Shown here: piece by piece, positions 5,750 through 45,137 of the stretch
Layout: every line of letters starts with the position of its first letter
Numbering within the stretch: position 1 is the first letter of the stretch
NCBI GenBank assembly: GCA_037042915.1
Contig: CM073196.1
Location: 3,162,001 to 3,226,000, forward strand
DNA: 64,000 nucleotides
Reading direction: 5' to 3'
From: Auricularia sp. M13
Lineage: Eukaryota; Basidiomycota; Agaricomycetes; Auriculariales; Auriculariaceae
Notes under the pieces: model-generated
Database searches by the model: none
What the model was told of the DNA's origin: nothing
Seen by the model: the letters and a program-made list of their open reading frames with translations, nothing else
Made by a program: the position numbers and the translations under genes

Positions 5750-6489
5750 GGACGGTGAAGAGGGCGTGAGCACGTCGCGACGGTATTCTCCGGCGTGGCG
5801 TTGGCTCACACCGGCCAATGACCAGCTGCTCATCACCCATACGTGCGCGTTACAATATAGTTGCGCGGAGCCGAATGCACCATACATTGCTTCTGTGCGG
5901 GTTCATCTTGGTGCAGGTTACGCGCTAGTTGTCAGCAATGACGAGGGGGAGCGGCAATGCGACTGGCCGAGTGGGAAAAGAGGCAAAGATGACATTGGGA
6001 TCCGACGATGGTTTATATACATCGGGGGAGACAATGCATGGTGAGGACAATGTAGAGGAGATAATGCTAACACTAGTCTCCTCAACAGCGTGTCCTCGAA
6101 CTGACGAGCGGGCGGACGCACTGTGTAGCATTACATGCTGGCCCAACGACGGACCTGCTAGCGCATCGATCTTCACCCCGCCCTTCTCGCGTGGCATGGG
6201 AGTCTGGACGCCAGACTCATGGGTAGTACATGGGTACCGGTGTAACCGGGGTATGACTCTATCGCGCCCACAAGCTAGCAGCATATCTGCGATAAATGCT
6301 CCCTATTTGCCGTACAGTATAACTTTGATATGAATTATACGCTGACTATATCCGCGTTAGGCTTTTGTCATATGAGACAACGCAGCCTGAGAGCACGGCA
6401 GGTTCACGACGTGCTCGCCCTGTGTGCGTACTGTGCTCTGAAGCTCTAGTTCAGCCTTTGCGCTCACTAACCGCCTGCGTGGGATTGCC
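5750..6489. other. Intergenic region; possible minus-strand TATA element
   Basis: Lies between the start of the Cys/His-rich-domain gene and the stop of the broken DUF6534 gene. On the minus strand TATATAAA occurs at 6017-6010, about 260 bp upstream of the start at 5749, and may be a promoter if the 5' leader is long. Short imperfect palindromes (GAGGACA..TGTCCTC, about 6050-6097) are present. No supported gene. Confidence 0.3.
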
Positions 6490-7079
6490 TCAACGTACCA
6501 GCTCAACTTCCATCGACGCCGAGCGGCATGTGGAAATGTCATGCTGCGCATCCCAGGGAGAAAAGAATGGCGGCATCTCAGCCTGTGCTCTGTCACCGAC
6601 AGCAAGAGATGTAGTATCCAATCTTATTCGACGCAGAGAGCGCCGTGCATTGAGCCTGTCGGGTGTGGGTCTGAATTCAGAAGCTTGCAGACTTTGAAGG
6701 CTTACATGGCAAGAAAGGAATTAACGTAAACTGGCATAGATAGTAAGCAAAGCCGATCGTAGAGACCGGATCGTAAGGAGGCAACGCACGATGCGAGATG
6801 AGAAAACTCATTGCAGAATATATCTGCTTCTGTGGCAAAGCTAAGTACTGGGCGCTCGTATCAGCCGAGTGAAACTAGATGTGCACACATGCATCTAACC
6901 CACCGTTGCAAGGACCGCGCACGTCACAAGGAATGTTGTAACTCCGGACGCGATGGTGTAATTGGTGAGTGAGGTCATCATGTGCTCAGTGCTACTCTTG
7001 GTCATTGACCTGATACATCCGGAGGAATATGAAATGGCCTACGATCTCATCCCACTCCTATGGGTGTACAGCCAGTGCA

Positions 7080-7093
7080 CCATAGCGATGGCG
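7080..7093. repeat. Target-site duplication, left copy of LINE
   Basis: CCATAGCGATGGCG here is repeated exactly at 18139-18152, directly after the LINE poly(A). On the minus strand it encodes part of AIAMVH in the interrupted DUF6534 exon, which proves the original insertion site. Confidence 0.95.
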
Positions 7094-8361
7094 GGGGGGG
7101 CTTCTTCCGGAACCATGATGTTCAAAATACGCTCACCCGCGTGAAGCCATACCAAACCCCCACAGCGTGCTCGCAGCACACGAGCACGCTGACGGCACAC
7201 AAGCCGCTGCAAAAAAGAGCAGAAAAAGTGGATTACGAACGTCGTACCACGTGCAATGATAGCGCGCCAGAACGCGCCCACAGATGTAGCGTACAGCAAT
7301 GTCGTGGGAGCCACAGGCAAGACAGCACTCCCCCACCCCGAAAATGAGCTGGCACGAGGAAAGATAGCACTCCAGGCGAACAGCGAGGTTTTGGAGACGG
7401 GAAGGGGCTTGATCCCTTCTGAGAGAACCTGGCCAGCGTAGGAAGTGTAAGCGATCAGGAACATGGCAGGTACGGCTGCGCGCACCAGTGCAAAACGACG
7501 GGGCAAGCCAGCGCAATGCACGACCGCCACGACGGTCGGGCAACGGGGACGCGCGGCGCCCAGGCCAAGCTCAGACCACGACGTCAAACCTCGTCCGCCG
7601 GAGATGACGTCACGTCTGACGGCACATCCGGAACGGGCCGAGCGACGTAGACGTAGGCGCCCCTATCGGCGGACCGGATGACGGGGTCGACCTCGCTGCA
7701 CGGACTCGCGGCGTCTGCGCACACAGCGCAGCGCTCGGGCAAATAAGTGGCTCCGCGGAACTGCCGCAACCCGGGCCAGTACTAGCCAAGGCCTCAGCAG
7801 AGTAATGGGCCACACGTAGAGAAACGTACCGTCCGGCAAAGGGCGCAGCCGCAGACCATGTCGTCCAGACCCAGAGCACACCCCGCCCAGAGCCCACACT
7901 TTACCGGCACCCAGAACGCGGGGATGGTCATGACCTTGCGCTGCAGCTGGTGAGAGACGGCCGAGAACGAGGACCAAACTACGTACACCGCACGAGTTGT
8001 AAGTCCCGATGCTGCTGGATGTCAGCGAGGAGGCCGCGATTTGAGAATACGCACAGTACTAAGTTACACATGGCGAAAGGGGATAAGGAAATGGCCCTCT
8101 GGGACATGCGCCTTTATAACACCGGACGGTACGGCCGCAGAGCAATAGCAGCAAGCCCATCACCACAACTGGCTTGACGCCACGTCTCACCATCCAATAA
8201 AGGGTGAAGATGCGAGCCTAGGATCCTCAGACAGACCCGTAGCCCCACCCAATAGAGGATGAAGAGCCCTGACAGCAACCCAGCCAGCGGAAGCAGGCAA
8301 AGGGATTCGCGCAAGGCGCGCGCGGAGCCCTGATCCCAAATGCTGGCCACGGCGAGGGCCG
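7094..8361 (+). other. LINE 5' region with possible antisense exons
   Basis: No convincing plus-strand ORF. On the minus strand two segments join cleanly across a 69-nt GTACGT..GGCAG intron. One is about 7988-7840 (VSHQLQRKVMTIPAFWVPVK and LGLDDMVCGCALCRT), the other about 7757-7584 (FRGATYLPERCAVCADAA to a stop). A hydrophobic stretch (LCLLPLAGLLSGLFILYWVG) is encoded on the minus strand near 8310-8230. This may be a fragment of a host membrane-protein gene carried along by the LINE, or chance. No family can be named with confidence. The region could instead be a long LINE promoter and leader. Confidence 0.3.
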
Positions 8362-9158
8362 ATGACGCCACCACCAGCCCTTCCACTCATACCTGCACTC
8401 AATATGCCATCCGAACGCGCAGGCCGACCAGCTAAGGCCACTCCGCGAAAGATTGCGCCACGTCCAGCAGCGCAAGAGGCAGGCGCGACCACAGAGCCTT
8501 GGCTCATAGATATCCGGGATATCATCGAGTCGCCCACGGCGAGCGAAAACGGGATCTGGATTGAGGCCCCTCTGCTGCCTGTGGAAGAGCCAGAAATGGC
8601 CCTCGGGTCGGACTTAACTAGTAAACACCGCTGCACCGCGATGCGCGCCGGGACTTTCTAATTCATGCAACAGTGCTACTTGACTTCTATGACGCGCCTG
8701 ATAAGGCCGGACAGGACAGCCTGTCGGTGCAGGGCCCCACGGCCGCGGAAGACACGCCGACGCCCCCGCCGGCCGCGGAGGGACCGCAGCATGATCACCA
8801 GAGCTCGCGCACGATCACGACACAGCCCGCGCAGAGGAGGCGCCGAAAATCGCCGTGCCCCCAAGTTCGGACGGAACGACTCGAGGTCCCGCTGGAGATT
8901 GCCCTGCTCGGCCCGCCGATTCCCACGGAGCGTACGCCGGACGGGCACCCAGTGCTGAGATGCAGAGGGTGCGACACGATTTGGCTCAAACGTACCAGGC
9001 GCGAGAAACACTGGGCCAAGCGCCCGGACTGTGAAACAGCCCATACGGCGGTGGTACAGGGTACCTACGACGCGATCGAGTACAACGAGACGCTCAGGCT
9101 TCGTAAAAAGGCAGCTGACAGGCGGGCGAAGAACGCGAACAAGTTGCTCGGCGTCTAA
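8362..9158 (+). CDS. Intron-containing upstream ORF of the LINE, Cys/His protein
   Basis: An ATG at 8362 opens 259 coding nt. A 53-nt intron at 8621-8673 follows, with donor GTAAAC, branch-like TTCTAATTC and acceptor CAACAG. The frame then stays open to a stop at 9156-9158, giving about 247 residues. The first half is Pro/Ala-rich. The second half ends with RCRGCDTIWLKRTRREKHW followed by a further Cys, a Cys/His pattern like a small zinc finger, and a very basic tail (RLRKKAADRRAKNANK). It lies in sense orientation upstream of the gag-like ORF1. It may be a separate LINE ORF (nucleic-acid binding by inference) or captured sequence. The splice model is inferred from sequence only. Confidence 0.45.
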
Positions 9159-9644
9159 GTAGAAAATAGAACCGGCCGTCATAGGACCGCTGTTTAACGG
9201 CATTGTAAGCCCGGGGCCCTTCTGCAACCGCAGTCAGGGTGACCGCCGGGTAGCACAGCCACAAATAGGCCAGCCCTTTAGTAAGCGGGCCCGACCGGCC
9301 GGAGGATGTCCGCTTGCTCCCAGACACTCGAGTCGCCAGCCCCAACACGAGTCACTTGGGGACCCTTCAAATGCGACGATGAACAGCCGCCACCGATAGA
9401 CCCCAGCCACGACGTGGGGCTTCGCATGAACAGGACAGGGCTTCGAATGAACGGGCGCAGGCGCTCTTTTGCTCCAGCCAATAGCGGGTGAGCAGCGCGC
9501 CCAAAGCGCAGGACGGCGCGCCTCGATGTGAAGCCAGAGTGCTCTCTGACGATCTCGCCCTCGCAGGAGGCCATCGCAAACCGCTCAATTACGAGTACGG
9601 TCCACCACGACGGGGCTCTGGATCGACGGCAGCAACAGTATAAT

Positions 9645-12092
9645 ATGCCAGGTGAGCGATGCCGCGCACTTGCCATTCTCCGAGACTCAGCGGCCCCAAG
9701 CATGCAAAGAGGCAGCCGCTACGCGCCCCTGGCCATGGAGGACAGCAGCAGAGACGAGTCCGCCGCTGACATTGAACGCGAATACGCCCCGCCGCCCGCA
9801 CCGCTGATGTCTGATCTCGTCGCGCCTATGCTCGAGGCGACGACTGGGATCTCGCTCCTACCGACCTCCCCGTCTGACACCGCCGCGGTGACGAACGCGG
9901 ACTACTCGCCCACGCGGGCTGCCACGGTCAGGAAGGCCGCGGACGCCCTCACACCCTCGCGCGAGAAGGCAGCAGAGGTAGACCGCAAGGACCGCCGACG
10001 CTCCGCTATCGACAGGCTCGACCTGAGCGCGCACGCGCCTCCGTCCCTCGCGCAGCAAGGGGCGCTCCTTCGTGTTCCGTACGCAACGGCAGTCACGAAC
10101 GGGGCCCAGGACGTCGCGGCCGACAAGAAAGTCGACACCCTGCTCTTTCGCTCCGCGACTGGCGCAGGCATGACCTCTGGTCAAGACACGAGCCCTCCGG
10201 CCCAGACGGCTCCAGCACTGAACTACCGCATGCTCCCAGAGGAGCCGCAGGGGGGCGAACATGCGCCGCCCGAACCGGCGAAGCAGTTCGGCGAAGCAAC
10301 GAGGAGCCTCGCGGTTAGTGCACAGTCAGTACCCGAGCCTTCTGCACAGCCTGACCGTCACCAGAGCGCGGAAATGGACATTTCGCCCACTCACTCGCAC
10401 ATGCGGCTGCAAGCGCAGCCCGACTATCGGGGAGACGAGTTCTTCGCCGCGGGCGTGACTATTCCGTGCGACCCGGACTCCCCAACAGCCAGCGCGACAG
10501 CGCGCAAACAGAACAAGGAGCAGCGTCTCCATCGCTGGAGGTCGGGCAGCGCGATCGTCTCGCGCGTCGCCGCGGCCAAGGCCATGCCGAGCGATACGTC
10601 ACGCCCGCGGTCCTTGTCACGCCCGCGGCCAGCCTCTCCTCCTCGTAGCACCTTCCGCGGCCGCTCGCCGACACGCGCCGCGCAATCGCCGGCGCCCCCC
10701 CATGGTTCGCAGCCCATGCAGGCAGCCGCCGCCGACACCATGGAAGAAGACCTCTACGACGACGCCAACGACGAGCGTTTCAGCATCCCGCCTGCGCAGC
10801 CGAGGCCCACATATGCGGCGTCCGAGGCGTCGTACGACTCGGAGGACTCGGAGAACGAGCGCGAGGACGCATTTCCGGCGCAGACGCCGCTTCCGCTGTA
10901 TTTCGCCAACGCTGAGGTCCGCATCGGTCTCTGCTCCAATTTCGAGCCCATCGACGGGAAGGCGGAAGACGCACATCTCGAAGGCCTCTGCCCGCGCATG
11001 CGAGAACAGTGGGACAACTACAAGGGACAGAAGTCCATCGCCGTCCTGAAGCGAGTCGGCGACACCAAGGACCTCGCGAGCCAGAACCCGCTTGCCATGC
11101 TTGCCAGGGCGAAGAAGGACTTCCACGGCGCGGGTTTCGATGTGGAGCTAACACTCGCTGAGCAGGATCCGAACAGCAACGTCCGAATCAACCCGTTTAC
11201 GTGCCTCATCCGCGGGCTCAGTGTGCACCAACGCCACGTCCTGCAGAGCAGCAGGTTCTGGGTTTTCGGAGTCACGAACTTCATCTCGTACCGCTACAAA
11301 ACGTACGCCGCCAACTTCTTCGGTACGGTAGAAGGCACGACTATGACCGGCTCGGAGATCGCGACGGTCTGCGAGGACGTCTAGATGAAGCTGCCCAGGG
11401 TCATAGAAGTCTTCGACGAGTACGCCCGCGCCCACTGAACGCCGAGCTCGCGCTAACACCGGTATAGACAGGCATCGCTGCGTCCAGGCAAGACCTCACA
11501 GGAGCTGCAAAGAGCTTTTGTCAAGTCCATCGACGTCGAGCCTATGCATGTCAAGGTCGACACGGCGGAGATCACGTATTATAACGTGTACGCCTTCGCC
11601 TCTTACTTGCCCCCCGCCCTGTACGGGGCGCTTCGCGACGCCATCCGCAGCTGCCCGCTGCCGAACGGCCTCAAGAACACGGGCCATATGCGGGACCCGC
11701 CCTACGAATGCTCGTACTGCGACGGCGAGTCGCACCCGAACGGCTGCTGCAGGACCTTGGACGTCGCGTACTGGCACAGGCCATGGGAACGCGTGCGCGG
11801 CGGCGGGAGCTCACGCGGCCGCGGTGGAGGGTCACGCGGCCGCGGCGGAGGCTCACGCGGAGGTAGCGGCTCACGCGGCGGAGGAGGCGCACGCGGCGGC
11901 GGCGGCTCACACGTCAACGGCGGCCCACGCGGCGGCGGTGGCTTCCCCGCACTGGCGGCGGCTCGCGCGGCGGCGGTGGCACCTTCTACGGCGGCGGAAG
12001 CTCGCGCGGCGGCGGCGGCTCGCGCGGCGGTACCAACGCGCGGGAACGGCTCGTTCGCGCCGAGCACGGGCAGCAAGGCCCACTTCTTCTAG
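9645..12092 (+). CDS. LINE ORF1, gag-like protein with CCHC zinc knuckle
   Basis: The first in-frame ATG is at 9645 (a second is at 9735). The frame runs to a TAG at 11382-11384. The product is Ala/Pro/Ser-rich and acidic, with an Arg/Ser-Pro stretch (PRSLSRPRPASPPRS). Its last 150 residues look folded (LTLAEQDPNSNVRINPFTCL, RFWVFGVTNFISYRYK). After ~80 nt the coding signal resumes in another frame at about 11475 (QASLRPGKTSQELQRAFVK) and runs to 12092. It holds CSYCDGESHPNGC, a C-x2-C-x4-H-x3-C knuckle, and a long Gly/Arg/Ser RGG-type tail. ORF1 proteins bind LINE RNA. The gap has GCTAACACC before TATAG or ACAG, so it may be an intron with a weak donor; a frameshift is the alternative. Confidence 0.7.
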
Positions 12093-12746
12093 AATTGCCT
12101 CCCCCCTCCCATATGACAAAACGCGCCGCCATAGGCTGGCAGCCCCATCCCGTGTACGCGCGCAGCGCCCCCCCAAAAAATGCACCCTCCGCCCCGCTGC
12201 GGAGGTGATCTTGTTACTGCTCAATAAAGCTGTTGCGCATGCACATGAACACCGTCTCCTTTGCATTCACCTGCGCTGGGGGGACCCCTTTCAAAGAAAA
12301 AAGAAGATCGGTGGGATCTTCATGAATACGTGTGAACTTCAGCACGGTTCCAGGAAGTCTCAGTGAAACAGATCCGGCTGCTTAGCTGTGCTTCCTTAGC
12401 GACGGCTCTGCACGATCCCAGATAGTGCCCTGGAGTGCCCAAATATACTGGTCGGCAACGAGGCAGGAAAGCACTCCTTGTAGAAAAAGCGGTGGCCTAT
12501 TTAGGCCAAGGACTGCCCGCGCGGAGACGCTTAAGCCGCGGGGAAATCAGCAATGCCCGGGCAACGTTGAGAATATCCAAGGCATGGTCCGCCGAGCTGG
12601 TCGGAACTACCAGCTGAGCGGTCAGGGTGCACTGGCCCTGGCACGCGAGATAATCAGTGCAACCTCAACCTCACATCAATAACTACACTTCCACGGTGAC
12701 GAGCGAAAGGTCGGTCTACACGACTCCGAACGCTGGACCGGCAGGG

Positions 12747-15700
12747 ATGGGGAACGCTGCCCTGCATCGGGATGAAAGCGCCGGAGTATTTGGCAGCGCC
12801 AGCTCCGCCGCCGCGGCGTCGCGAGGTCCCTCCTGGGGGATGGACGCTGGCAGCGAGGAGCATGAGAACGAGGGTGCAGCCCGGAACGGGCAGGATGATG
12901 ATGTAGAACCACAAGAGGGCGAATCTATTTCATGGCAGCCATCGTCGGGCACAGGATCGCGACCTAGCGCTAGCCCTCTGAGTGCTCATTCTGCCACACC
13001 GGAGACTCAGCAGCGACGGGGAGAAGAGGCGTCGGTCCCAGACGACGACGAATCACGGTCGTGTTCCAGAAAGAAGACCAAGGCGTTCCTGAGAATAGCC
13101 TCGGAAAACATGAAGGGCAGGGGAGCCCAGCATATAGCGGGCAGCCTAAAATGGAAGAAACTCGCCGAGGATATGCGGAGTAAGAAAATCGGAGTTATGG
13201 CAATACAGGAGACACACCTGTCCGACGCGCATGTGGATGAAATCCACCAGTTCTACGAACACCTGCACGTAGAAAACTCGCATCTCCCTGCGAATCCGAC
13301 GGGAGCCGGAGGAATTGCGATCGTCTTTAACAAACTTCTCACGAACTACAAGTCGGTGGAGAAATACGTACTTGTACCAGGCAGGGCATTGGTAGTTAAA
13401 TTTGAATGGCACAGAGGTACCAACATGACTATTCTTGCAGTGTACGCCCCGACGGATGTTCGGGAAAATAGGGAATTCTGGGTAAAAATCAGAAACAAGC
13501 TACGCGGGTCACGAGTGTCAATCCCCAAGCCAGAGGTCTTTCTTGGAGACTTCAACTTCGTGGAAGATCCCATCGACAGGTACCCAGTAAAAATAACGCC
13601 GATGGACTCACCGCAGTCTTTCGACGATCTCAAAGCGTACCTCCGGGTTTTTGACGGCTGGCGGTTAACTTTCCCCGACAGGACAGAATGGACCTGGCGA
13701 AACGGCAGCAGATCGGCGATGTCTAGGATAGACAGGATATACCTTAGCAAAGAGCTGCTTAGGGCGAGTCGGGGATGGGAGATTGAGATATCAGATCTCA
13801 ACACCAACGACCACAGCAGGATCCTGACTGAACTGACCAGTCTTGGATGCCCGGAAGTCGGTCCTGGGCGGTGGAGCATGCGTGAGCCGCTGGTCCGAGA
13901 CAACATTTTCATGAACTCGGTGAACAGACTAGGAAAGGAGGCCCAGCTGAGCCTCTCGGAGATCGCGACAGAAGGCCGCTCGGAACAGAAGAACCCGCAG
14001 ACTGTGTGGGCAAGCTTCAAAGCGGCCGTGATAGAGTCTGCGAAACGGCGAGGAAAAGCAAAGAACTGCGCGAGACTCACGGAAGTGAACAAGCTCAAGG
14101 AAGAGCGTCTCGCGGCGATTACGGAACTCGGTTCCGGGGGAGAACAGGCGAATGAAGACGCTGCTCGTGGCCGGTTGCGGGCAGTGGAACAGAGACTGCA
14201 CAAGCTGCAGGAGGATGAGCACTTGAACACCTTCACCTTCCGAACCACACGCGCTTGGGCGGCCGGCGAGACGATGGATAAAGGCTGGTTCGCATGGACT
14301 AAGGAGCGCAAACCCAGGGATACGCTCGTCAGCCTGCAGAAACCGGGTAGCGACCCACCAATTTTCGTGACAAATTCTAAGGGTATGGCAGCTCTGGCGG
14401 GCGAGTATCACGAATCCGTACAATCTGTGGACATGGACGTGGACGAGATGCACCGCGAGGAAGCTGTGCTGCACACTCTACAACACATCCAGCGCCCAGC
14501 GAGCGGGGCTGCGGTGGAAGACATGTCACGCGCGATCTCCGAACTGGAGGTGGTAGAGTCGATTATGGCAGCGAAGAACGGCTCAGCGGCGGGAACTGAC
14601 GGCCTCATATACGAGCTATGGAAGACGCTGCATAAATTCCATACGATTACGAAGAACAGGGCGGTACCTTGGTTCAACCTCGCAGCTGTCCTCACGGCGA
14701 CCTACGCCGACATCGAACAACATGGGCTGCTCCCAGACTCGACATTTGCCGAGGGATGGCTCTGCCCGCTGTATAAGAAGGGCGAGCGGTGCAGAATTGA
14801 GAATTATCGCCCGATCACCCTTCTCAACACGGACTACAAGATCTACACGAAATCTCTTGCCCTCAGGCTCGCTCGGGCGGCACCTGACATGATACATGAG
14901 TCCCAGGCAGGCTTCGTGCGCGGGAGGAGCATAACAGAACATACCAAAATTTCCTCCCTGATCTTAGATTATGCGGAAGTCATGGAAGAAAATGGGGCCA
15001 TTGTTGCCCTTGACCAAGAAAAGGCGTACGACCGGATACGCCACGATTATCTGCTCAGAGCGTTGGAAGCTTTCCATCTTCCTGGTAATTTTGTGCGCGC
15101 AGTTAAAAACCTGTACGAGAATGCTTACACGACAGTGATGGTGAACGGGTTTATGAGCAGCAGATATAAAGTCACTCGGGGAGTCAGGCAAGGCGATCCA
15201 CTGTCCTGCCTGCTCTTCAACCTCGCAATAGAACCCCTTTCCGCGATGCTGCGACAGTCCAATCTGCGAGGTTATCAGATCGGAGGGCTGGCAAATAAGT
15301 TAATCGCGACACTTTACGCGGATGACACAACAGTGTATCTCAGTGAGCACGACTCGTACGGCGAGCTGGTGAGAATCCTTGACAAGTGGTGCCTTGCGGC
15401 GGGCGCGCGTTTTAACTCGTTGAAAACGGAAATCATCCCGCTCGGGGCTCGAGCCTATCGCGACGAGCTGGTTGAGACTAGAAGACTTGCGCCCGGTGAG
15501 GAGCAATTTCCCGCCGCGATCAGGATCGCCAGAGAGGGAGAGGTCACGAGAATCTTGGGCACATGGCCCGGAAATGGCGTCCAAACAGCGAACACGTGGT
15601 CAGTAATTACGGACAGAGTCCGGGACAGCCTAGATAGATGGTCGGCCAAGAGACCGACGTTCAACGGCAAGGGCATTCTGTCTCAGACAATCGCGGGAGG

Positions 15701-17951
15701 ATACACGCAGTACCTCACCGCAGCCCAAGGAATGCCTACAAAGGTTGAGAAGAAACTCGACAAGATGGTGCTCGATTTCTTTTGGGGATCGACGCGCCGC
15801 CATCCAATCAACATGACGACCCTCCGCATGACTAAAGCCAATGGAGGCATGAATCTGGTGCATATTGGCGACAGGAACGAAGCCCGGTATCTCACATGGG
15901 TGAGCGCGTTTCTCGCGCCGCCGACAGAACGCCCCATCTGGGCCTTCATAGCGGACCATGTGTTCCGCGCGACCATGATTGAGAAAGACCGTCGCCTGGT
16001 CCCGTTGGAGACTAGAGTAAATCCGTTCTACCGGAAGTGGAGCCCCAACGTGAGACGTCTTCCGTTCATTTTGCGGCAACTCGTGCGAGTGGCAAGGAAG
16101 CACAACCTCGTGCTTGACGCCCCTATGATCCCAGAGAAAATGAGGGAGGAGATGCCACTGTGGGCACACCCGGCGCTGATGCACCCGGACGCCCTACGCC
16201 GGGGGGGCACAGAGGTGAGATGCCTGCGTCGAGCGCACGCCGTGCGCACGATCGAGGACCTCGAAGAAATAGCCGAGGCGGACGACGACGATCACGAGGA
16301 CGCGACGGACTGCGGCTGCGAGAACTGCACGGCAGACAAGCTGGAGGGATGCAAGAGGCCGTACAGGTGCCAGGAACTGGCCTGCGACACCATAGGTGAC
16401 ATTGCGCCGAAGTGGCACCCGTCCACGACACAGCCTGCAATCGCGGACGAATTGTGGCACGCCTTTGCGGACCAGCGACAGACTGCGATCCGGGACGGAG
16501 AGCTGATCGTTTTTGACTCGAAGCTGGATGAGGGCGCACATCTGGAGGACTACTATAGAATCCTAGGCCATGCCATAGCGCTGAAGCCCAGATGCGCGGA
16601 AGAGGCGATGCGAGGGCCAGCGGCGTCGCGGCAATACCGAGCCCGAGACCCAGTACAGGTAGTCGTCAGTGGCGCAATGTTCCGAGACAACACGTACGAG
16701 GCCAAGGGCGGTTTCGCGGTTTTCTTCCCAGACTTTGAATTTGGGGGCACGACCGGGCGCTGCCCCGGCGAGACGCAAACGTATATCAGAAGTGTGGCCA
16801 TTGCCGTTCTGACGGCTGCGCAGACAGCACCGTGGCACAGGCCACTCCACGTCGTGACCACGTGCCAACAGGTCGTAGTGATGCTGACCACTCGGCTAGC
16901 ATACCACGAAGCGCGAGGCTGGATTGACGTTCCGGAGGAAGCGGAAGCGCTGCGGGCCACTGCGGCGATTCTGCGCGCCCGCAGCGCAGAAACGACTTTC
17001 ACCGTAGTGCACAAATCGCGTATGAAGGACTGGCCTGCAATAGGCGATGCGAAAAAGATGGCAGCAGTAGCCGCGGAGGTAGGGCCCGATGTTCGCATCA
17101 ACTGGGCACGTTTTGCAGCCTTCGACAAGCCGGGCCTGTCGATCAGACACTTGAGTCAGAGGACCACGCACCGTGCGCTGAAGCAGGTCGCGCGAGACGG
17201 TGCGGAAGTCAGGCGGGCGACAGCGAAGAACCTGTCAGCCATCCGCGGGAGCATGGCGCGCGAATGCGGCTACTCCCCGACGACGGACGCGATTTGGAAG
17301 TCGTTGCAAACGCGCGCGCTCTCACGAACCGCTAGGAATTTTATCTGGAAGGGAATTCACGGAGCCCACAAAGTGGGCGACTATTTCAGCAAAATGCCGG
17401 AGCCCTGGAAAAGCTATGAAATGTGTCCCACATGTGACAAGGTGGAAACAATGGAGCACATCCTATTGGAGTGCCCGGACACTGGCCAAGGGCACGTCTG
17501 GAAGCTGGTTCGCTGGCATCTGAGACACAAGCTCGTCGAGCTGAACATCGATATCGGCGTCATTTGGGGAAGCACTACCTTCCACGCCTCTGGGTACTGG
17601 GGGGCGCGGAACAAGGCCGTAGAGCGCGCTGTCAGCATCATAATCTCCGAATCAGCGTTCCTGATTTGGAAAATCAGGTGCGAGAAGCGCATAGAGCACG
17701 AGGATGATCCAGACTGGCGGCTCACGGACAAGGAGGTTCAGGACCGGTGGCAGAAAATACGGCGTACTCGGTATGACCAGGATTACAGGCTGACGAATCG
17801 GCACTACAAGAAGCACGCGATCAACAAATGGCTGGTGCACGACACCTGGCTAGATCTCTTGCGCCCAAACCACAGGCATTTCAAGTTTAGATATAGAAAG
17901 CCCGGAGTTTTAGTGGGTACGGGAGTCGCACGCCATGACGGCGTCGGCTGA
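12747..17951 (+). CDS. LINE ORF2: endonuclease, reverse transcriptase, RNase H-like, zinc knuckle
   Basis: An uninterrupted frame of 1734 codons from the first ATG; it is open upstream to 12657 without an ATG. Residues ~113-370 are an apurinic-type endonuclease with IQETHL, LGDFNF, SRIDRIYL and NDHS, so the catalytic set looks complete. Residues ~670-930 are the reverse transcriptase: ENYRPITLLN, AGFVRGRS, VALDQEKAYDRI, RGVRQGDPLSCLLF and catalytic YADD at ~856. An acidic Cys-rich insert (CGCENCTADKLEGCKRPYRC) follows at ~1190. Residues ~1300-1440 resemble RNase H in layout, but the usual acidic residues are not obvious (VVSGAMF and VVTTCQQVVVML replace the D-containing strands). A zf-RVT-like motif, CPTCDKVETMEHILLECP, is at ~1559. 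The protein nicks target DNA and copies LINE RNA in place. It looks whole. Confidence 0.93.
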   Translation: MGNAALHRDESAGVFGSASSAAAASRGPSWGMDAGSEEHENEGAARNGQDDDVEPQEGESISWQPSSGTGSRPSASPLSAHSATPETQQRRGEEASVPDDDESRSCSRKKTKAFLRIASENMKGRGAQHIAGSLKWKKLAEDMRSKKIGVMAIQETHLSDAHVDEIHQFYEHLHVENSHLPANPTGAGGIAIVFNKLLTNYKSVEKYVLVPGRALVVKFEWHRGTNMTILAVYAPTDVRENREFWVKIRNKLRGSRVSIPKPEVFLGDFNFVEDPIDRYPVKITPMDSPQSFDDLKAYLRVFDGWRLTFPDRTEWTWRNGSRSAMSRIDRIYLSKELLRASRGWEIEISDLNTNDHSRILTELTSLGCPEVGPGRWSMREPLVRDNIFMNSVNRLGKEAQLSLSEIATEGRSEQKNPQTVWASFKAAVIESAKRRGKAKNCARLTEVNKLKEERLAAITELGSGGEQANEDAARGRLRAVEQRLHKLQEDEHLNTFTFRTTRAWAAGETMDKGWFAWTKERKPRDTLVSLQKPGSDPPIFVTNSKGMAALAGEYHESVQSVDMDVDEMHREEAVLHTLQHIQRPASGAAVEDMSRAISELEVVESIMAAKNGSAAGTDGLIYELWKTLHKFHTITKNRAVPWFNLAAVLTATYADIEQHGLLPDSTFAEGWLCPLYKKGERCRIENYRPITLLNTDYKIYTKSLALRLARAAPDMIHESQAGFVRGRSITEHTKISSLILDYAEVMEENGAIVALDQEKAYDRIRHDYLLRALEAFHLPGNFVRAVKNLYENAYTTVMVNGFMSSRYKVTRGVRQGDPLSCLLFNLAIEPLSAMLRQSNLRGYQIGGLANKLIATLYADDTTVYLSEHDSYGELVRILDKWCLAAGARFNSLKTEIIPLGARAYRDELVETRRLAPGEEQFPAAIRIAREGEVTRILGTWPGNGVQTANTWSVITDRVRDSLDRWSAKRPTFNGKGILSQTIAGGYTQYLTAAQGMPTKVEKKLDKMVLDFFWGSTRRHPINMTTLRMTKANGGMNLVHIGDRNEARYLTWVSAFLAPPTERPIWAFIADHVFRATMIEKDRRLVPLETRVNPFYRKWSPNVRRLPFILRQLVRVARKHNLVLDAPMIPEKMREEMPLWAHPALMHPDALRRGGTEVRCLRRAHAVRTIEDLEEIAEADDDDHEDATDCGCENCTADKLEGCKRPYRCQELACDTIGDIAPKWHPSTTQPAIADELWHAFADQRQTAIRDGELIVFDSKLDEGAHLEDYYRILGHAIALKPRCAEEAMRGPAASRQYRARDPVQVVVSGAMFRDNTYEAKGGFAVFFPDFEFGGTTGRCPGETQTYIRSVAIAVLTAAQTAPWHRPLHVVTTCQQVVVMLTTRLAYHEARGWIDVPEEAEALRATAAILRARSAETTFTVVHKSRMKDWPAIGDAKKMAAVAAEVGPDVRINWARFAAFDKPGLSIRHLSQRTTHRALKQVARDGAEVRRATAKNLSAIRGSMARECGYSPTTDAIWKSLQTRALSRTARNFIWKGIHGAHKVGDYFSKMPEPWKSYEMCPTCDKVETMEHILLECPDTGQGHVWKLVRWHLRHKLVELNIDIGVIWGSTTFHASGYWGARNKAVERAVSIIISESAFLIWKIRCEKRIEHEDDPDWRLTDKEVQDRWQKIRRTRYDQDYRLTNRHYKKHAINKWLVHDTWLDLLRPNHRHFKFRYRKPGVLVGTGVARHDGVG

Positions 17952-18138
17952 ACTCCAAGCCCCACACTACCTCACCAGGTGTGCTAACTGCTATTTCTCC
18001 GGACGGAGACGTCCCTATACACAAATTGGGCGGCTTGCCCCGCCCGTCTCAGCTGTCCGATTCATCGGATAAGGGAGCAACCTGGGTCACTATGTGATTG
18101 CGGGCCTCCTGACGCTCTACAAAAAAAAAAAAAAAAAA

Positions 18139-18152
18139 CCATAGCGATGGCG
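18139..18152. repeat. Target-site duplication, right copy of LINE
   Basis: Exact repeat of 7080-7093, immediately after the poly(A) stretch at 18121-18138. The DUF6534 coding frame resumes to its right on the minus strand. Confidence 0.95.
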
Positions 18153-19091
18153 ATAATTGCATCGCACACCATCATCAGGGCGAGTCCAGCGATTGCCAGG
18201 TTCTACGTGAGTTGTATGTGAGTTCAAGTAAACAACCAACCATGTCAGGAAGATCGACTTGCCCCTGATTGAGTACTTGAGATAAAACTTGATGCTCGTC
18301 CGAACCTAGGCTGCGTGAGCAATTGGAGCGCGTGAATTAGGTATAAAGATGCACGCACTGTTCTGCTGAGACAGCTGCAGTCCGTCAGTACGTTGCCAGC
18401 CCTGAAACAACGCACTGACCTAGAGCTATGTACGCAAAAGAAATCAGCTATATTGCTAGGTTGCTGAATGCTTCATATCAACTCACGCAACGGTGATATG
18501 CCGAGGGCCAACTACGATGACAGTGAGCCCAGAAAGAGAATGCGATCTAGCTTGAGCTTACGATCAGGACGAACAGATGAACATTCTTGGTAACTGAGGG
18601 AGAAGAGGATTTGCATCAGCGGTTGAACAGCGCGACTGGCCACCGGAGCATACGACGTAACAGCCTGTATGCGTAAAAGCTACTCAAGTGAGTGGACATC
18701 ATTGAAAGAGATCGATAAGGTACTAACCATTGCACAAGTGCGATAATTATTGGCTGCAGTTATGCTCCATGTCAACGGAAGATAAGCTCTCAGTGGTTAT
18801 ATCTGACCGATACAACGAAAAGACCAGCTCTGAGAGTCCACGGCAGTGCGCTCGGGTCTGGAGGTCGTCCAATATCGGTCACAAGGAGTTGGTATAGACC
18901 CGACGACACCAGGATAGTGATTATCACTCCGAGGATCCTGGAACTTGCTTTAGTCAAGTTCAAGTGCTCTGGGAAAGAGGTTTACAATAGTGCCAATACC
19001 TTGGTGAAGTCAGATAACGAGTTGCATATGAAAAGACTCGCATACCACAATTTTGAGGTACAACGGATCTTGATGGTAGTTCTTCAGATAC

Positions 19092-19585
19092 TGTAGAGCT
19101 AATAATTATTACCGTGTCACGCGTCACGGAGGCCTCACGGCCCGGTAATAAACACGTTTTGTAACATGTCACGGGCCTCTCCTGGTAACAGGATGTCACG
19201 GTGTTCAGGCATTCAATTCCTCACTTGAGACTGTCAGGAGTGGCGCGCCTTCGGCGCGCAGCATGTATAACTATAAAACCAGCAAATCTCACACAATCCC
19301 TTCAGAATCATAGTGGTTAGAATCATGATTATCACTGCACTGTCCATATCAGGCTTTCAGATACCTGAGCAGACCCGGAAACAACCCTTAAATGGATAAT
19401 TTTACTCAAGGCATCTTTCCCACAGTCCACTTGTGCTTTGTCCTGCTGAGAACAAGCTAAGAAGTACCAATTCAGCGATTTTTTTCTCAGCCTGTGTGGC
19501 AATGTCACATGTCACGGGTGCCCCAAGGTAATGTCTCCGACGTGTCACGGTCCAATGTCCTCGGTAATAATTATTAGCTCTACAG
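19092..19585. mobile_element. 494-bp TIR element (MITE-like) with TA target duplication
   Basis: Ends are perfect inverted repeats of at least 23 bp: CTGTAGAGCTAATAATTATT then ACC at the left, its complement at the right. They are flanked by TA at 19090-19091 and 19586-19587. Subterminal zones are crowded with GTCACGG-type repeats on both sides, as transposase-binding sites often are. A perfect hairpin, GCGCGCCTTCGGCGCGC, lies at about 19243-19259. There is no transposase ORF, so the element is non-autonomous. TA duplication fits the Tc1/mariner superfamily, but the family is inferred. It sits inside exon 1 of the DUF6534 gene. Confidence 0.9.
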
Positions 19586-19808
19586 TAGATCCATGATTGC
19601 ACAATCGACGCGCCGAGGAGTAAAGTAGCCAATTGCTGGCCAATGTACCAAACACCATAAACTTCGTTCGCATCGCTCATGGAAAGGAAGAGAGAGGAGA
19701 CTAAACAGGGTGTGTCAGTAAGCAGACAACGAAACGAAAATGGTGGGCGCTCACAGTGGCACTCTGAGCGCTGCCTTTGCCGCCAACCTCAGCCGCGACT
19801 GAAACTTC

Positions 19809-31519: not shown

Positions 31520-32543
31520 TGTCACGGTGTGCTGCATACACCACCGACCAGGAGGCGTAGCCGACCAGGAAGGGTACTCAGGAGGGGAAGGTCAAACACA
31601 TAATAGACCAGATCCAACCTAGGGTACATCCGAGGGCAATCGCCGGTACATATAGTCCGATCGGAGGCAAACCGGATCCGAACGCTCCAGACAACAAAGG
31701 AAGCCAACCAACACCAAAGAGAGGTCCGGAAGCGATGGGAAAGGCATCGGGGAAGTCACCGAGGGTAATCGGGAGCCAATGGAAGCAATGGGGGGTAAAG
31801 GGAGTCAAGGGAGGGTCAAGAAAGAGTGAAGCGTCGCGCCGAAGGCGCAGAACGGCTCCGGACGAAGGGGATAAAGGATGTCCGTGCCTATGGAGGGTAT
31901 CGGGCGGGTATCCGAGACAGACCAAGGTGTCCTTGCATGTATGCACGCACTAACACCGGGGGCGAAAGGCGCCGACGCAATGGCAGCGCGCAGCAGCGAG
32001 CGCAACGCGTCGGCGAGCGAGGTACGGGTGCACCACCCAACAATCAACACTCCCACTCCATCCGGACAGCCTCCGGACCATGGACCATGCCGCGCGGACC
32101 GAGGAGAGTGTGGCGGCCGAGGTCCGAGGTGCCGGAGCGGTCGAGCATCCAGGGGACAGAGGGTGACGGATGTACGTCGGCACGATCGTTGCAGCTTCAC
32201 CTATACTCCCAGCGCACACCGGCCATGCAGGGCGATACCCGAGGTGTGGTGTGCGGCATCTCCGAAGGTGTAGGCCGTAATGTGACACCGAGGAGACGGA
32301 CCGACGAACGGCTACACACTGGTTGGAAACCAACGCAGCGGTGATCGACAACAATGGCAATAGCGCGTCGCATCCAAGGACCGAGGTTGACAGGGGTCCG
32401 GTGACGCCGAGAGAAGGTAGCCGAGGTGCCAGCGGTCCGGAGAGGCATGCGGAACGGGTATATCGGTCCGACGGAGCGGTGTGAAGCGGCGAAAGAGATC
32501 CAACGGAAGCGGCGTATGGGCAAGATCGCCGCGCACCGTAACA
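31520..32543. repeat. Left LTR of the 31.5-kb element
   Basis: 1024-bp direct repeat, TG...CA ends, nearly identical to 34859-35882. Confidence 0.9.
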
Positions 32544-34858: not shown

Positions 34859-35882
34859 TGTCACGGTGTGCTGCATACACCACCGACCAGGAGGCGTAGC
34901 CGACCAGGAAGGGTACTCAGGAGGGGAAGGTCAAACACATAATAGACCAGATCCAACCTAGGGTACATCCGAGGGCAATCGCCGGTACATATAGTCCGAT
35001 CGGAGGCAAACCGGATCCGAACGCTCCAGACAACAAAGGAAGCCAACCAACACCAAAGAGAGGTCCGGAAGCGATGGGAAAGGCATCGGGGAAGTCACCG
35101 AGGGTAATCGGGAGCCAATGGAAGCAATGGGGGGTAAAGGGAGTCAAGGGAGGGTCAAGAAAGAGTGAAGCGTCGCGCCGAAGGCGCAGAACGGCTCCGG
35201 ACGAAGGGGATAAAGGATGTCCGTGCCTATGGAGGGTATCGGGCGGGTATCCGAGACAGACCAAGGTGTCCTTGCATGTATGCACGCACTGACACCGGGG
35301 GCGAAAGGCGCCGACGCAATGGCAAGCGCAGCAGCGAGCGCAACGCGTCGGCGAGCGAGGTACGGGTGCACCACCCAACAATCAACACTCCCACTCCATC
35401 CGGACAGCCTCCGGACCATGGACCATGCCGCGCGCGGACCGAGGAGAGTGTGGCGGCCGAGGTCCGAGGTGCCGGAGCGGTCGAGCATCCAGGGGACAGA
35501 GGGTGACGGATGTACGTCGGCACGATCGTTGCAGCTTCACCTATACTCCCAGCGCACACCGGCCATGCAGGGCGATACCCGAGGTGTGGTGTGCGGCATC
35601 TCCGAAGGTGTAGGCCGTAATGTGACACCGAGGAGACAGACCGACGAACGGCTACACACTGGTTGGAAACCAACGCAGCGGTGATCGACAACAATGGCAA
35701 TAGCGCGTCGCATCCAAGGACCGAGGTTGACAGGGGTCCGGTGACGCCGAGAGAAGGTAGCCGAGGTGCCAGCGGTCCGGAGAGGCATGCGGAACGGGTA
35801 TATCGGTCCGACGGAGCGGGTGAAGCGGTGAAAGAGATCCAACGGAAGCGGCGTATGGGCAAGATCGCCGCGCACCGTAACA
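34859..35882. repeat. Right LTR of the 31.5-kb element
   Basis: 1024-bp direct repeat, followed by GTTGC, the right copy of the 5-bp target duplication. Confidence 0.9.
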
Positions 35883-37651: not shown

Positions 37652-38785
37652 TGTCACGGTGTGCTGCATACACCACCGACCAGGAGGTATAGCCGACCAG
37701 GAAGGATACTCAGGAGGGAAAGGTCGCACACATAATAGACCAGATCCAACCTAGGGTACATCTGAGGGCAATCTCCGGTACATATAGTCCGATCGGAGGC
37801 AAACCGGATCTGAACGCTCCGGACGACAAAGGAAGCCAACCAACACCAAAGGGAGGTCCGGAAGCGGTGTGAAGACATCGGGGAAGTGACCGAGGGTAAT
37901 CGGGAGCCAGTGAAAGCAATGGGGGGTAAAGGGAGTAATGGGAGGGTCAAGAAAGAGCGAAGTGTTGCGCCGAAAGTGCAGAACAACTCCGGACGAAGGT
38001 GGTAAAGGATGTTCGTGCCTATGGAGGGTATCGGGCAGGTATCCGAGACAGACTGAGGTGTCCCTGCATGTATGCACACACCGACACCAGGGGCGAAAGG
38101 GGGGCTGATGCAATGGCGAGCGCAGCGCATCAGCGAGCGCGGTACAAGCGCACCACCCAACAATTGAGACTCCCAATGTATCCAGACGTCCTCTGGACCA
38201 TGGACCATGCCGAGCGCGGACTGAGGAGAGTGTGGCGGCCGAGGTCTGAGGTACCAGAGCAGTCGAGCATCCATGGGACAGAGGGTGAAGGAGGTACATC
38301 GGAAAGATCGTTGCAGCAGTGCCTGTACTCCCAGCGCGCACTGGCCATGCAGGGCCATACCTGAGGTGTTGTGTGCTGCATATCCAAAGGTGTAGGCCGT
38401 AATGTGACACCGAGGAGACGGACCGACGAGTGGCTACATGCCAGTTGGAAACCAACGCATCAGTGGTCAATGACAATGGCACGTCGCATCCAAGGACCGA
38501 GGTTGACAAGGGTCCGGTGATGCCGAGAGAAGGTATCCAAGGTGCCAGTGGTCCGGAGAGGCATGCGGGACGGGTATATTGGTCAGACGGAGCAGGCGAA
38601 GCAGCGAAAGGGATCCAATGGAAGCAGCGTATGGGCGTGATCGCCGCGCACCATAACACCGGCCATTGCCCTTGGATGTACCCTAGGTTGGATCTGGTCT
38701 ATTATGTGTTCGACCTTCCACTCCTGAGTACCCTTCCTGGTCAGCTATAACTCCTGGTCAGTGGTGTATGCAGCACACCGTGACA
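37652..38785. repeat. Rearranged LTR copy ending in an inverted LTR start
   Basis: 37652-38658 is a third, clearly more diverged copy of the LTR of the 31.5-kb element, with no internal region attached. Directly after it, 38659-38785 is an inverted copy of about the first 125 bp of the same LTR, so the unit begins TGTCACGGTGTGCTGC and ends with its complement. It appears older than the element at 31520 and is incomplete. Confidence 0.85.
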
Positions 38786-43443: not shown

Positions 43444-45137
43444 ATGGGAGCCATTGATGATAGCTTCGGGGCCTGGTACATCGGCCAGCAGGTGGCTATC
43501 TTGCTCGTCGGCGCTTCAATAGTCCAGTCATGGGTATATCTGAAGAATAGCGGCCAGGACCCTGTACTTTTAAAGACAGTGGTAACGAATTAGTCTAGCA
43601 CAGCGGACATCGAAGAATCTCAACTAATTGTGCTCCAGGTCCTTATTCTTATGTACTAGTTGCATACTTCATCGACAACGAATTGGCGCACTGAGACTTC
43701 GCTCAGGCTGCTTCAGGCCACCCTTGCGGCCTTAGTGTCCGCAGGCCTCTATCACTTCCTCATAACAGCTATCGGAAACCCGCAAGCGTTGACCTCAATC
43801 CCTCGGACGCTGAATGCGGAACCTTTCATTTCGGTGAGCCCTTCGAGACTGTTCCGTTCGTCATGAATCTGAGGCGTAGCTGAGGCTGCGGTCATCGCGA
43901 TCGTCCAGTGGTACGCAGCTAGTGGTATTCATGCCCTGAATACGGTCCTCCGCTGACAAATGAGTTTAGGTTCTATGCTTTCAGACTATTCCATCGTGAG
44001 TCTGAGTACCCCAGCTTTTATGGGAGGGTTCAAGCTTACTTCTTGATCCAGTTACGAAGAGTATCGCTCTACTGGTGATTGTGGTCAGTCCATAGATTTA
44101 TTTAGGAGGCCCAACATTTCAACTCAAGTGATATTTGCACTAAGTTGCTTCTTGGAGCCGCGCAACTCGGTGAGTGACCCTGTATTTGATCTGCACCGGT
44201 GCTCACGGCTCACCTGGTACTGCCGTAGGCATGGCGTCTGGTGCGCATGTGGATGTCAAATGGATGCAGTTTACCGTCACTCACGAAACGTATCAGCTGG
44301 TGCAGCAGCAGAGTTTGTCAATTAATTTTTGACCTGAACTCATTGTCTGATCGCTCATGCCCAGCCTGAATCAGTCAGGGACGATCGTTTCGAGTTCGAT
44401 GGCTAAGGCATGTCGCAGTTCCCCAGCCGCTGCCAGCATGCTTAATCCTCAGCAGACTATTTCATGCGCTTCGCTCGTTGCGGATATGTTGTGCGATGCG
44501 ATTATTACTGTCACCATCGTACATTTTTTGCACACTCATCGGACCGGTGTCAAATCGTGAGTCTTGCCATTCATATGCCCTTGAGACTGATACCAGCTCG
44601 CTGAGCAGTACGGAGAATATGATGAACACCCTGACGAACTATACACTCGCCTCCGGCTTCATTACCTTCGTCGGGTCATGTGTCATCCTAGCCACAGTCA
44701 GTAATCCGCTTGCATCCAGACTTTTGGAAGATCAACTCATATGTGTGCTTTTAGTATCTAGCTCTTCCGGATACGCAGATATACTCTGCAATTGGCTTCC
44801 TCCTGCCGCATCGTGCGTAGTTTTGTAATCATAGGCGACCGTTGGGCGACTGAGCAAGGGCACCAGTCTACACAAATTCACTTCTTGCTCTGTGAGCGGC
44901 AGCCCCGGTCGACCATATCAACAAAATCTTACCTTAGATAGGCTTAACGCAAGGCGCTCACTTCGTCAACGCTCCGTGGCGCAGATTTCCATGACTAGGA
45001 ACACTGCGCAACCCCGAGACTCTGCACCATTATTTGTGCCATGGAATAACTCGCCAGAACTAAGGTCTGGTTATACATCGACGACGATGAACATTGAGAT
45101 GGTACACTTACCTGCGATAAGCATTTGCATCAGCTGA
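43444..45137 (+). CDS. DUF6534 seven-helix membrane protein (paralogue of the broken gene)
   Basis: A multi-exon gene opening MGAIDDSFGAWYIGQQVAIL then LKNSGQDPVLLKTV (exon 1, 43444-43581, with donor GTAACG). Following coding blocks are LAALVSAGLYHFLITAIGNP (about 43730-43790), IAIVQWYA (about 43900), FYAFRLFHR (about 43970), LVADMLCDAIITVTIVHFLH (about 44475-44540), STENMMNTLTNYTLASGFIT (about 44600) and a C-terminus with LDRLNARRSLRQRS and PLFVPWN. This is the DUF6534 pattern of Agaricomycete membrane proteins of unknown function, with about seven hydrophobic helices. It matches the disrupted gene at 6490-19680 block by block, so the two are paralogues. Exon borders after the first are approximate. 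It appears whole, though I did not verify every junction. Confidence 0.75.

Follow-up and report, generated by a model that had tools for sequence, protein, structure and literature searches.

What broke the DUF6534 gene that lies in this stretch of Auricularia sp. M13 DNA, and can its earlier, uninterrupted form still be read? The stretch, here called the window, is 64,000 nucleotides long and corresponds to C4:3162001-3226000 (C4 being contig CM073196.1) in a genome of 52.1 Mb and 14 contigs. DUF6534 genes, short introns, and LINEs (long interspersed nuclear elements) are what one would expect of an agaricomycete. All genomic comparisons were made within this genome, with other copies taken from individual loci. 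A preliminary description of the window attributed the damage to a single 11-kb LINE. That insertion is correct, but the account was incomplete and missed a miniature inverted-repeat transposable element (MITE) that also interrupts the gene, in its exon 1. We are highly confident that a DUF6534 gene was duplicated and that one copy was then broken by the LINE and the MITE independently.

Two insertions and their empty sites

The LINE spans 11,045 bp on the plus strand (positions 7094 to 18138), antisense to the DUF6534 gene, and both of its ends match other copies. It begins with a G-run at 7094 and closes with a poly(A) tail of 18 residues (18121 to 18138, plus strand). The tail was read directly, and the same A-tailed 3' end is common to 22/22 loci read among the 29 other loci; the best piece ends short of the 3' end in those left out (L011, L024-L027, L030, and L038). 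Immediately outside the G-run and the tail sit two copies of the 14-mer CCATAGCGATGGCG (7080 to 7093 and 18139 to 18152, plus strand), which are identical at 14/14 positions. By sequence reading and 14-mer count, these are its only occurrences in the window, with starts at 7080 and 18139. Recurrence alone is weak evidence, as the window contains 992 different 14-mers that occur more than once; the weight of the duplication comes from its placement at both ends of the element and from the single copy in a paralogue. The preliminary length of 14 bp holds for the two exact copies, but the duplication measures either 14 or 15 bp (15 bp from 7079), as the first A is indistinguishable from the LINE tail. 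Joining the flanks without 7094-18152 yields the minus-strand coding stretch VCDAIIAIAMVHWLYTHR, just as had been proposed.

This close paralogue (C4:3123446-3125119) lies outside the window, about 43 kb away and in inverted orientation. Searched alone, the left flank (window 6261-7093) has a single strong match, to C4:3124517-3125366 at 82%, and the right flank (window 18138-19090) likewise has only one, to C4:3123539-3124531 at 79%. The left-flank search also returned 19 short matches (43-65 bp); every one of these lies in window 6010-6132, outside the gene. The two flank matches overlap in the paralogue by exactly 15 bp, which is the LINE target in single copy. Base-level alignment to the paralogue is unbroken across both the LINE site and the MITE site, and homology extends beyond the MITE as far as window 20089. 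The paralogue is thus a natural empty site for the LINE. Origin of the flanks from different genes had been set beforehand as a test; both align to one continuous gene within the same genome.

The preliminary description had instead used a paralogue at 43.4 kb (43444 to 44817, plus strand). Detected by tblastx with the joined gene, it is indeed a DUF6534 homologue (Pfam E 1.6e-9, pieces hand-joined) and has the matching stretch DAIITVTIVHFLHTHR in frame at 44351-44560, but it is more distant than the copy outside the window. An assembly chimera at the LINE is a rival explanation for junctions read from an assembly. We consider it extremely improbable, as the duplication, the A tail, the 5' end shared by the family, and the continuous paralogue all fit a real insertion.

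The MITE (positions 19089 to 19587) consists of 495 bp between TA duplications, has perfect 26-bp inverted ends, and interrupts codon 32 in exon 1 (...QSWIY^LKNYHQDP...). Only one TA is present at this site in the paralogue. BLAST pieces overlap here by 14 bp, probably due to resemblance between the target and the MITE end. The family is multicopy, with 96 matching pieces in the genome, 40 of 60 candidates having been scored. Among 11 other copies that were read, 10 have TA on both sides and the eleventh is without its right end. With its terminal inverted repeats, TA duplication, and many copies, the element is a TA-type MITE, and we take it to be akin to the TA-duplicating Tc1/mariner-type MITEs, with which it shares these three features. 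Its length of 495 bp suggests that it has no transposase of its own.

Either insertion should be enough to break the gene. In gene sense, however, the MITE ends read CT^GTAGAG ... CTACAG^TA and offer possible GT/AG splice sites, raising the alternative that the element behaves as an introner-like intron, is removed by splicing, and leaves the LINE alone to break the gene. Splicing at these ends would leave 4 extra bases and shift the frame, and we regard this alternative as very unlikely.

The DUF6534 gene and its proposed history

The gene runs on the minus strand. Its 5' part (18153 to 19680) has the ATG at 19680, carries exons 1-7 and the start of exon 8, and contains the MITE; its 3' part (6490 to 7093) extends from the end of exon 8 to a stop at 6490-6492. 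Both parts were delimited with exon models and the paralogue alignment. The hand-joined exons match DUF6534 (PF20152) with an E value of 2.8e-16 (60.9 bits against a cut-off of 28.2). The matching domain crosses the joined LINE junction, in agreement with the identity first assigned to the gene. The paralogue scores E 3.9e-16 for the same family, and a search with its protein yields 14 pieces that locate this subfamily at three sites, each of them on C4. PMC12842992 proposes DUF6534 as a new family of fungal G protein-coupled receptors. The window gene resembles this family in scoring above the Pfam cut-off but differs in being broken, and the receptor function is itself a published prediction.

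Modelled introns are 46-67 nt long, the exception being a gap that measures 284 nt here and 318 nt, with indels, in the paralogue. This gap must hide an exon, because plain concatenation is out of frame beyond it in both copies; the frame of each later exon was therefore set individually. A candidate frameshift in exon 5 (CTCCGG here, CTAGG in the paralogue) was dropped, since in both copies the change falls in an intron, owing to a GTATGC donor immediately upstream of it.

Comparison with the paralogue shows past coding constraint. The 833 modelled exon positions align without a gap and are 10.1% different, and the aligned non-exon positions are 21.2% different with 50 gap columns. Nonsynonymous divergence (dN) is 0.046-0.051 and synonymous divergence (dS) 0.30 by NG86, and 0.054 and 0.26, respectively, by YN00, for a ratio of about 0.15-0.21. 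Substitutions at codon positions 1, 2, and 3 number 11, 9, and 39 in ten blocks, the last exon being excluded. The lack of exon indels and the low dN/dS ratio indicate that the coding sequence was constrained long after the duplication.

These data suggest the following history. A DUF6534 gene would have been duplicated on C4, and one copy would later have received two independent insertions, both younger than the gene duplication. The LINE, of the apurinic endonuclease (APE) type, would have entered in antisense orientation by target-primed reverse transcription, with duplication of 14-15 bp at the target and an A tail at its 3' end; a cut-and-paste transposase may have mobilized the TA-duplicating MITE. 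Both sites are still empty in the sister copy, at a distance of about 43 kb, and the broken copy would give no full-length protein.

Several observations weigh against this history or the gene model behind it. The empty site is known from a paralogue and not from an allele. A genome-wide, exon-by-exon search with the DUF6534 profile gave 10 matches, none of them at the gene, the paralogue, or the 43.4-kb homologue; the domain is interrupted by introns in these genes. Visual inspection for an internal exon between modelled exons 7 and 8 was unsuccessful, and the scanned protein was assembled exon by exon without that exon. For exon 3, the donor as modelled lacks GT in the paralogue; a manual shift of 6 nt gives GTCAGA here and GTGAGA there. 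The stop codon also differs, with the paralogue reading on past the end of this copy. The first open reading frame (ORF1) of the LINE is interrupted in frame by stops at 11382, 11436, and 11454. Finally, comparison of the MITE with its five closest copies over 499 sites shows 14 differences private to it, so it is not brand new.

This last point bears on the order of events. The LINE need not have killed the gene, because the MITE also breaks it, and the chances seem to us evenly balanced that the MITE came first and that the LINE landed in an already dead pseudogene. Exon 1 is split by the MITE, and the private differences of the MITE contrast with a LINE duplication that is still fully identical. 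However, a 14-bp duplication is too short for dating, no near copy of the LINE is available for this purpose (the closest is 88% identical over 506 bp of the 3' end), and the two insertions are not nested. In either order, duplication followed by two independent insertions remains our preferred account. Both empty sites are preserved at base resolution in the sister gene; the insertion mechanism and the gene model thereby corroborate each other, and the locus makes a clean teaching case.

The LINE and its relatives in the genome

The longest frames of 7094-18138 are on the plus strand. ORF2 (12654 to 17951, plus strand) spans 1765 amino acids from stop to stop, with its first ATG at 12747, and encodes an endonuclease, a reverse transcriptase, an RNase H-like domain, and a weak zf-RVT match that falls under its Pfam cut-off. 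The endonuclease (PF03372, E 8.7e-10) and the reverse transcriptase (PF00078, E 1.9e-34) both score above their cut-offs. The best relative with a solved structure is human L1 ORF2p, with E 1.6e-47 over endonuclease and reverse transcriptase. Upstream, the ORF1 frame (9492 to 12092, plus strand) includes the motif CSYCDGESHPNGCC, which we take to be a CCHC-like knuckle. ORF1 looks damaged in the window copy. Its three stops cluster inside 75 nt (window 11382-11456), and the 5.3-kb ORF2 frame is stop-free. A relative on C6 is stop-free over the same ORF1 stretch, and its own ORF1 shifts frame further upstream.

The first ~65 bp of the LINE are found again at C6:1884852, C10:1611844, and C1:5363553, with 81-85% identity. 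In the printed flanks, the C6 copy has an 11-bp target duplication, GTACAAGCCTG, and the C10 copy has a 12-bp duplication, GAATCCATTGAG. Junction reading, the paralogue, and these other copies bear out the earlier view of an element with readable ends and a short target duplication. An APE endonuclease and a reverse transcriptase in one ORF, the A tail, the duplication, and the shared 5' end identify it as an APE-type LINE.

Two further possibilities for the element found little support. A composite or shortened LINE is unlikely, as the C6 relative measures about 11.5 kb between the shared 5' and 3' ends; this length comes from coordinates, the sequence seen being 4,451 contiguous interior bases and the loci at both ends. 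Decay resembling repeat-induced point mutation is unsupported: the CpG observed/expected ratio is 1.10 in the LINE and 1.11 in window 20501-64000, and TA/AT is 0.68 and 0.65, respectively. Separately, the C10 relative (C10:1611844-1630502), which has the 12-bp duplication, measures about 18.7 kb between the shared ends, a length that probably reflects an insertion of about 7 kb nested within it.

In sequence and layout, the window LINE appears close to L1-like APE-type non-LTR (long terminal repeat) retrotransposons, which it resembles in its endonuclease and reverse transcriptase within one ORF, its ORF1, its A tail, and duplications of 11-15 bp. It differs from them in its length of 11 kb, its 1765-amino-acid ORF2 frame, and an RNase H-homologous domain after the reverse transcriptase. 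Tad, Inkcap, and Deceiver are named as fungal LINE clades in PMC4427930, PMC3411680, and PMC9674265, and the clades listed with RNase H in PMC4640811 include Tad1. Compared by description, the window element is like these clades in being a fungal LINE and unlike them in that its RNase H-like domain is without catalytic acids.

Elsewhere in the window, 1.02-kb direct repeats occur at 31520-32543, 34859-35882, and 37652-38658. The first two share 99.2% identity and are separated by about 2.3 kb, the third copy is 87% identical, and inverted fragments lie nearby. This arrangement resembles two LTRs flanking a short interior, accompanied by nested pieces.

An RNase H-homologous domain after the reverse transcriptase

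ORF2 continues beyond the reverse transcriptase into a 210-amino-acid domain that is conserved among the LINE relatives in this genome and was detected by tblastn in 28/29 loci. An alignment was built from the window copy and 15 of the 28 relatives, leaving out near-duplicate, partial, and frame-broken rows; the aligned relatives are 33-83% identical to the window copy over this domain. Pfam reports an RNase H match in 0/16 aligned copies, and a profile search of solved structures with the domain returned one weak, unrelated chain only (E 0.038). The relationship to RNase H emerges from profile-profile comparison only. Within the domain, positions 16650 to 17015 (plus strand) match a profile built from eight intact RNase H domains that this genome also encodes, with an hhalign probability of 97.2% and an E value of 4.6e-11 over 119 columns, whereas an unrelated profile used as a negative control gives a probability of 0.05%. 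The reference consists of the best 8 of 79 RNase H matches in the genome.

The three alignable catalytic acids are kept in 0/16 aligned copies, the window's included, and none appear in the left-out rows where those columns are shown. The fourth catalytic acid falls outside the profile-profile alignment. The window domain therefore differs from a functional RNase H of the Tad type, with its catalytic D-E-D residues. Because the domain is conserved while the three acids are gone in 16/16 copies, this diverse fungal LINE lineage may have kept a post-reverse-transcriptase RNase H fold for a non-catalytic role, an interpretation that we see as having about an even chance of being right.

The eight intact domains belong to other LINEs, in which they lie upstream of the reverse transcriptase (L069-L076, for example, C6:1536562, C1:3047506, and C1:1603304). 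Six of the eight frames are ordered endonuclease, RNase H, reverse transcriptase, and the remaining two are partial and consistent with this order; L070 and L071 are near-identical, so the eight are not all independent. A 2015 paper describes RNase H upstream of the reverse transcriptase as unique to the oomycete element Utopia (PMC4640811), an order that these other LINEs share. A search of the literature, not in depth and mostly of non-subscription sources, gave no evident precedent for a fungal LINE in which RNase H is inactive or placed upstream.

The insertion of the LINE is itself ordinary transposon biology with an unusually clean control. For DUF6534, a candidate receptor family, the locus would be a case in which transposons eliminated one member following duplication. 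Retroviruses carry a degenerate RNase H, known as the connection or tether domain, and a non-catalytic RNase H fold in this lineage would, if true, be a LINE parallel to it. If the same domain is seen in other fungi, it would raise a testable question about the role of the RNase H fold in LINEs.

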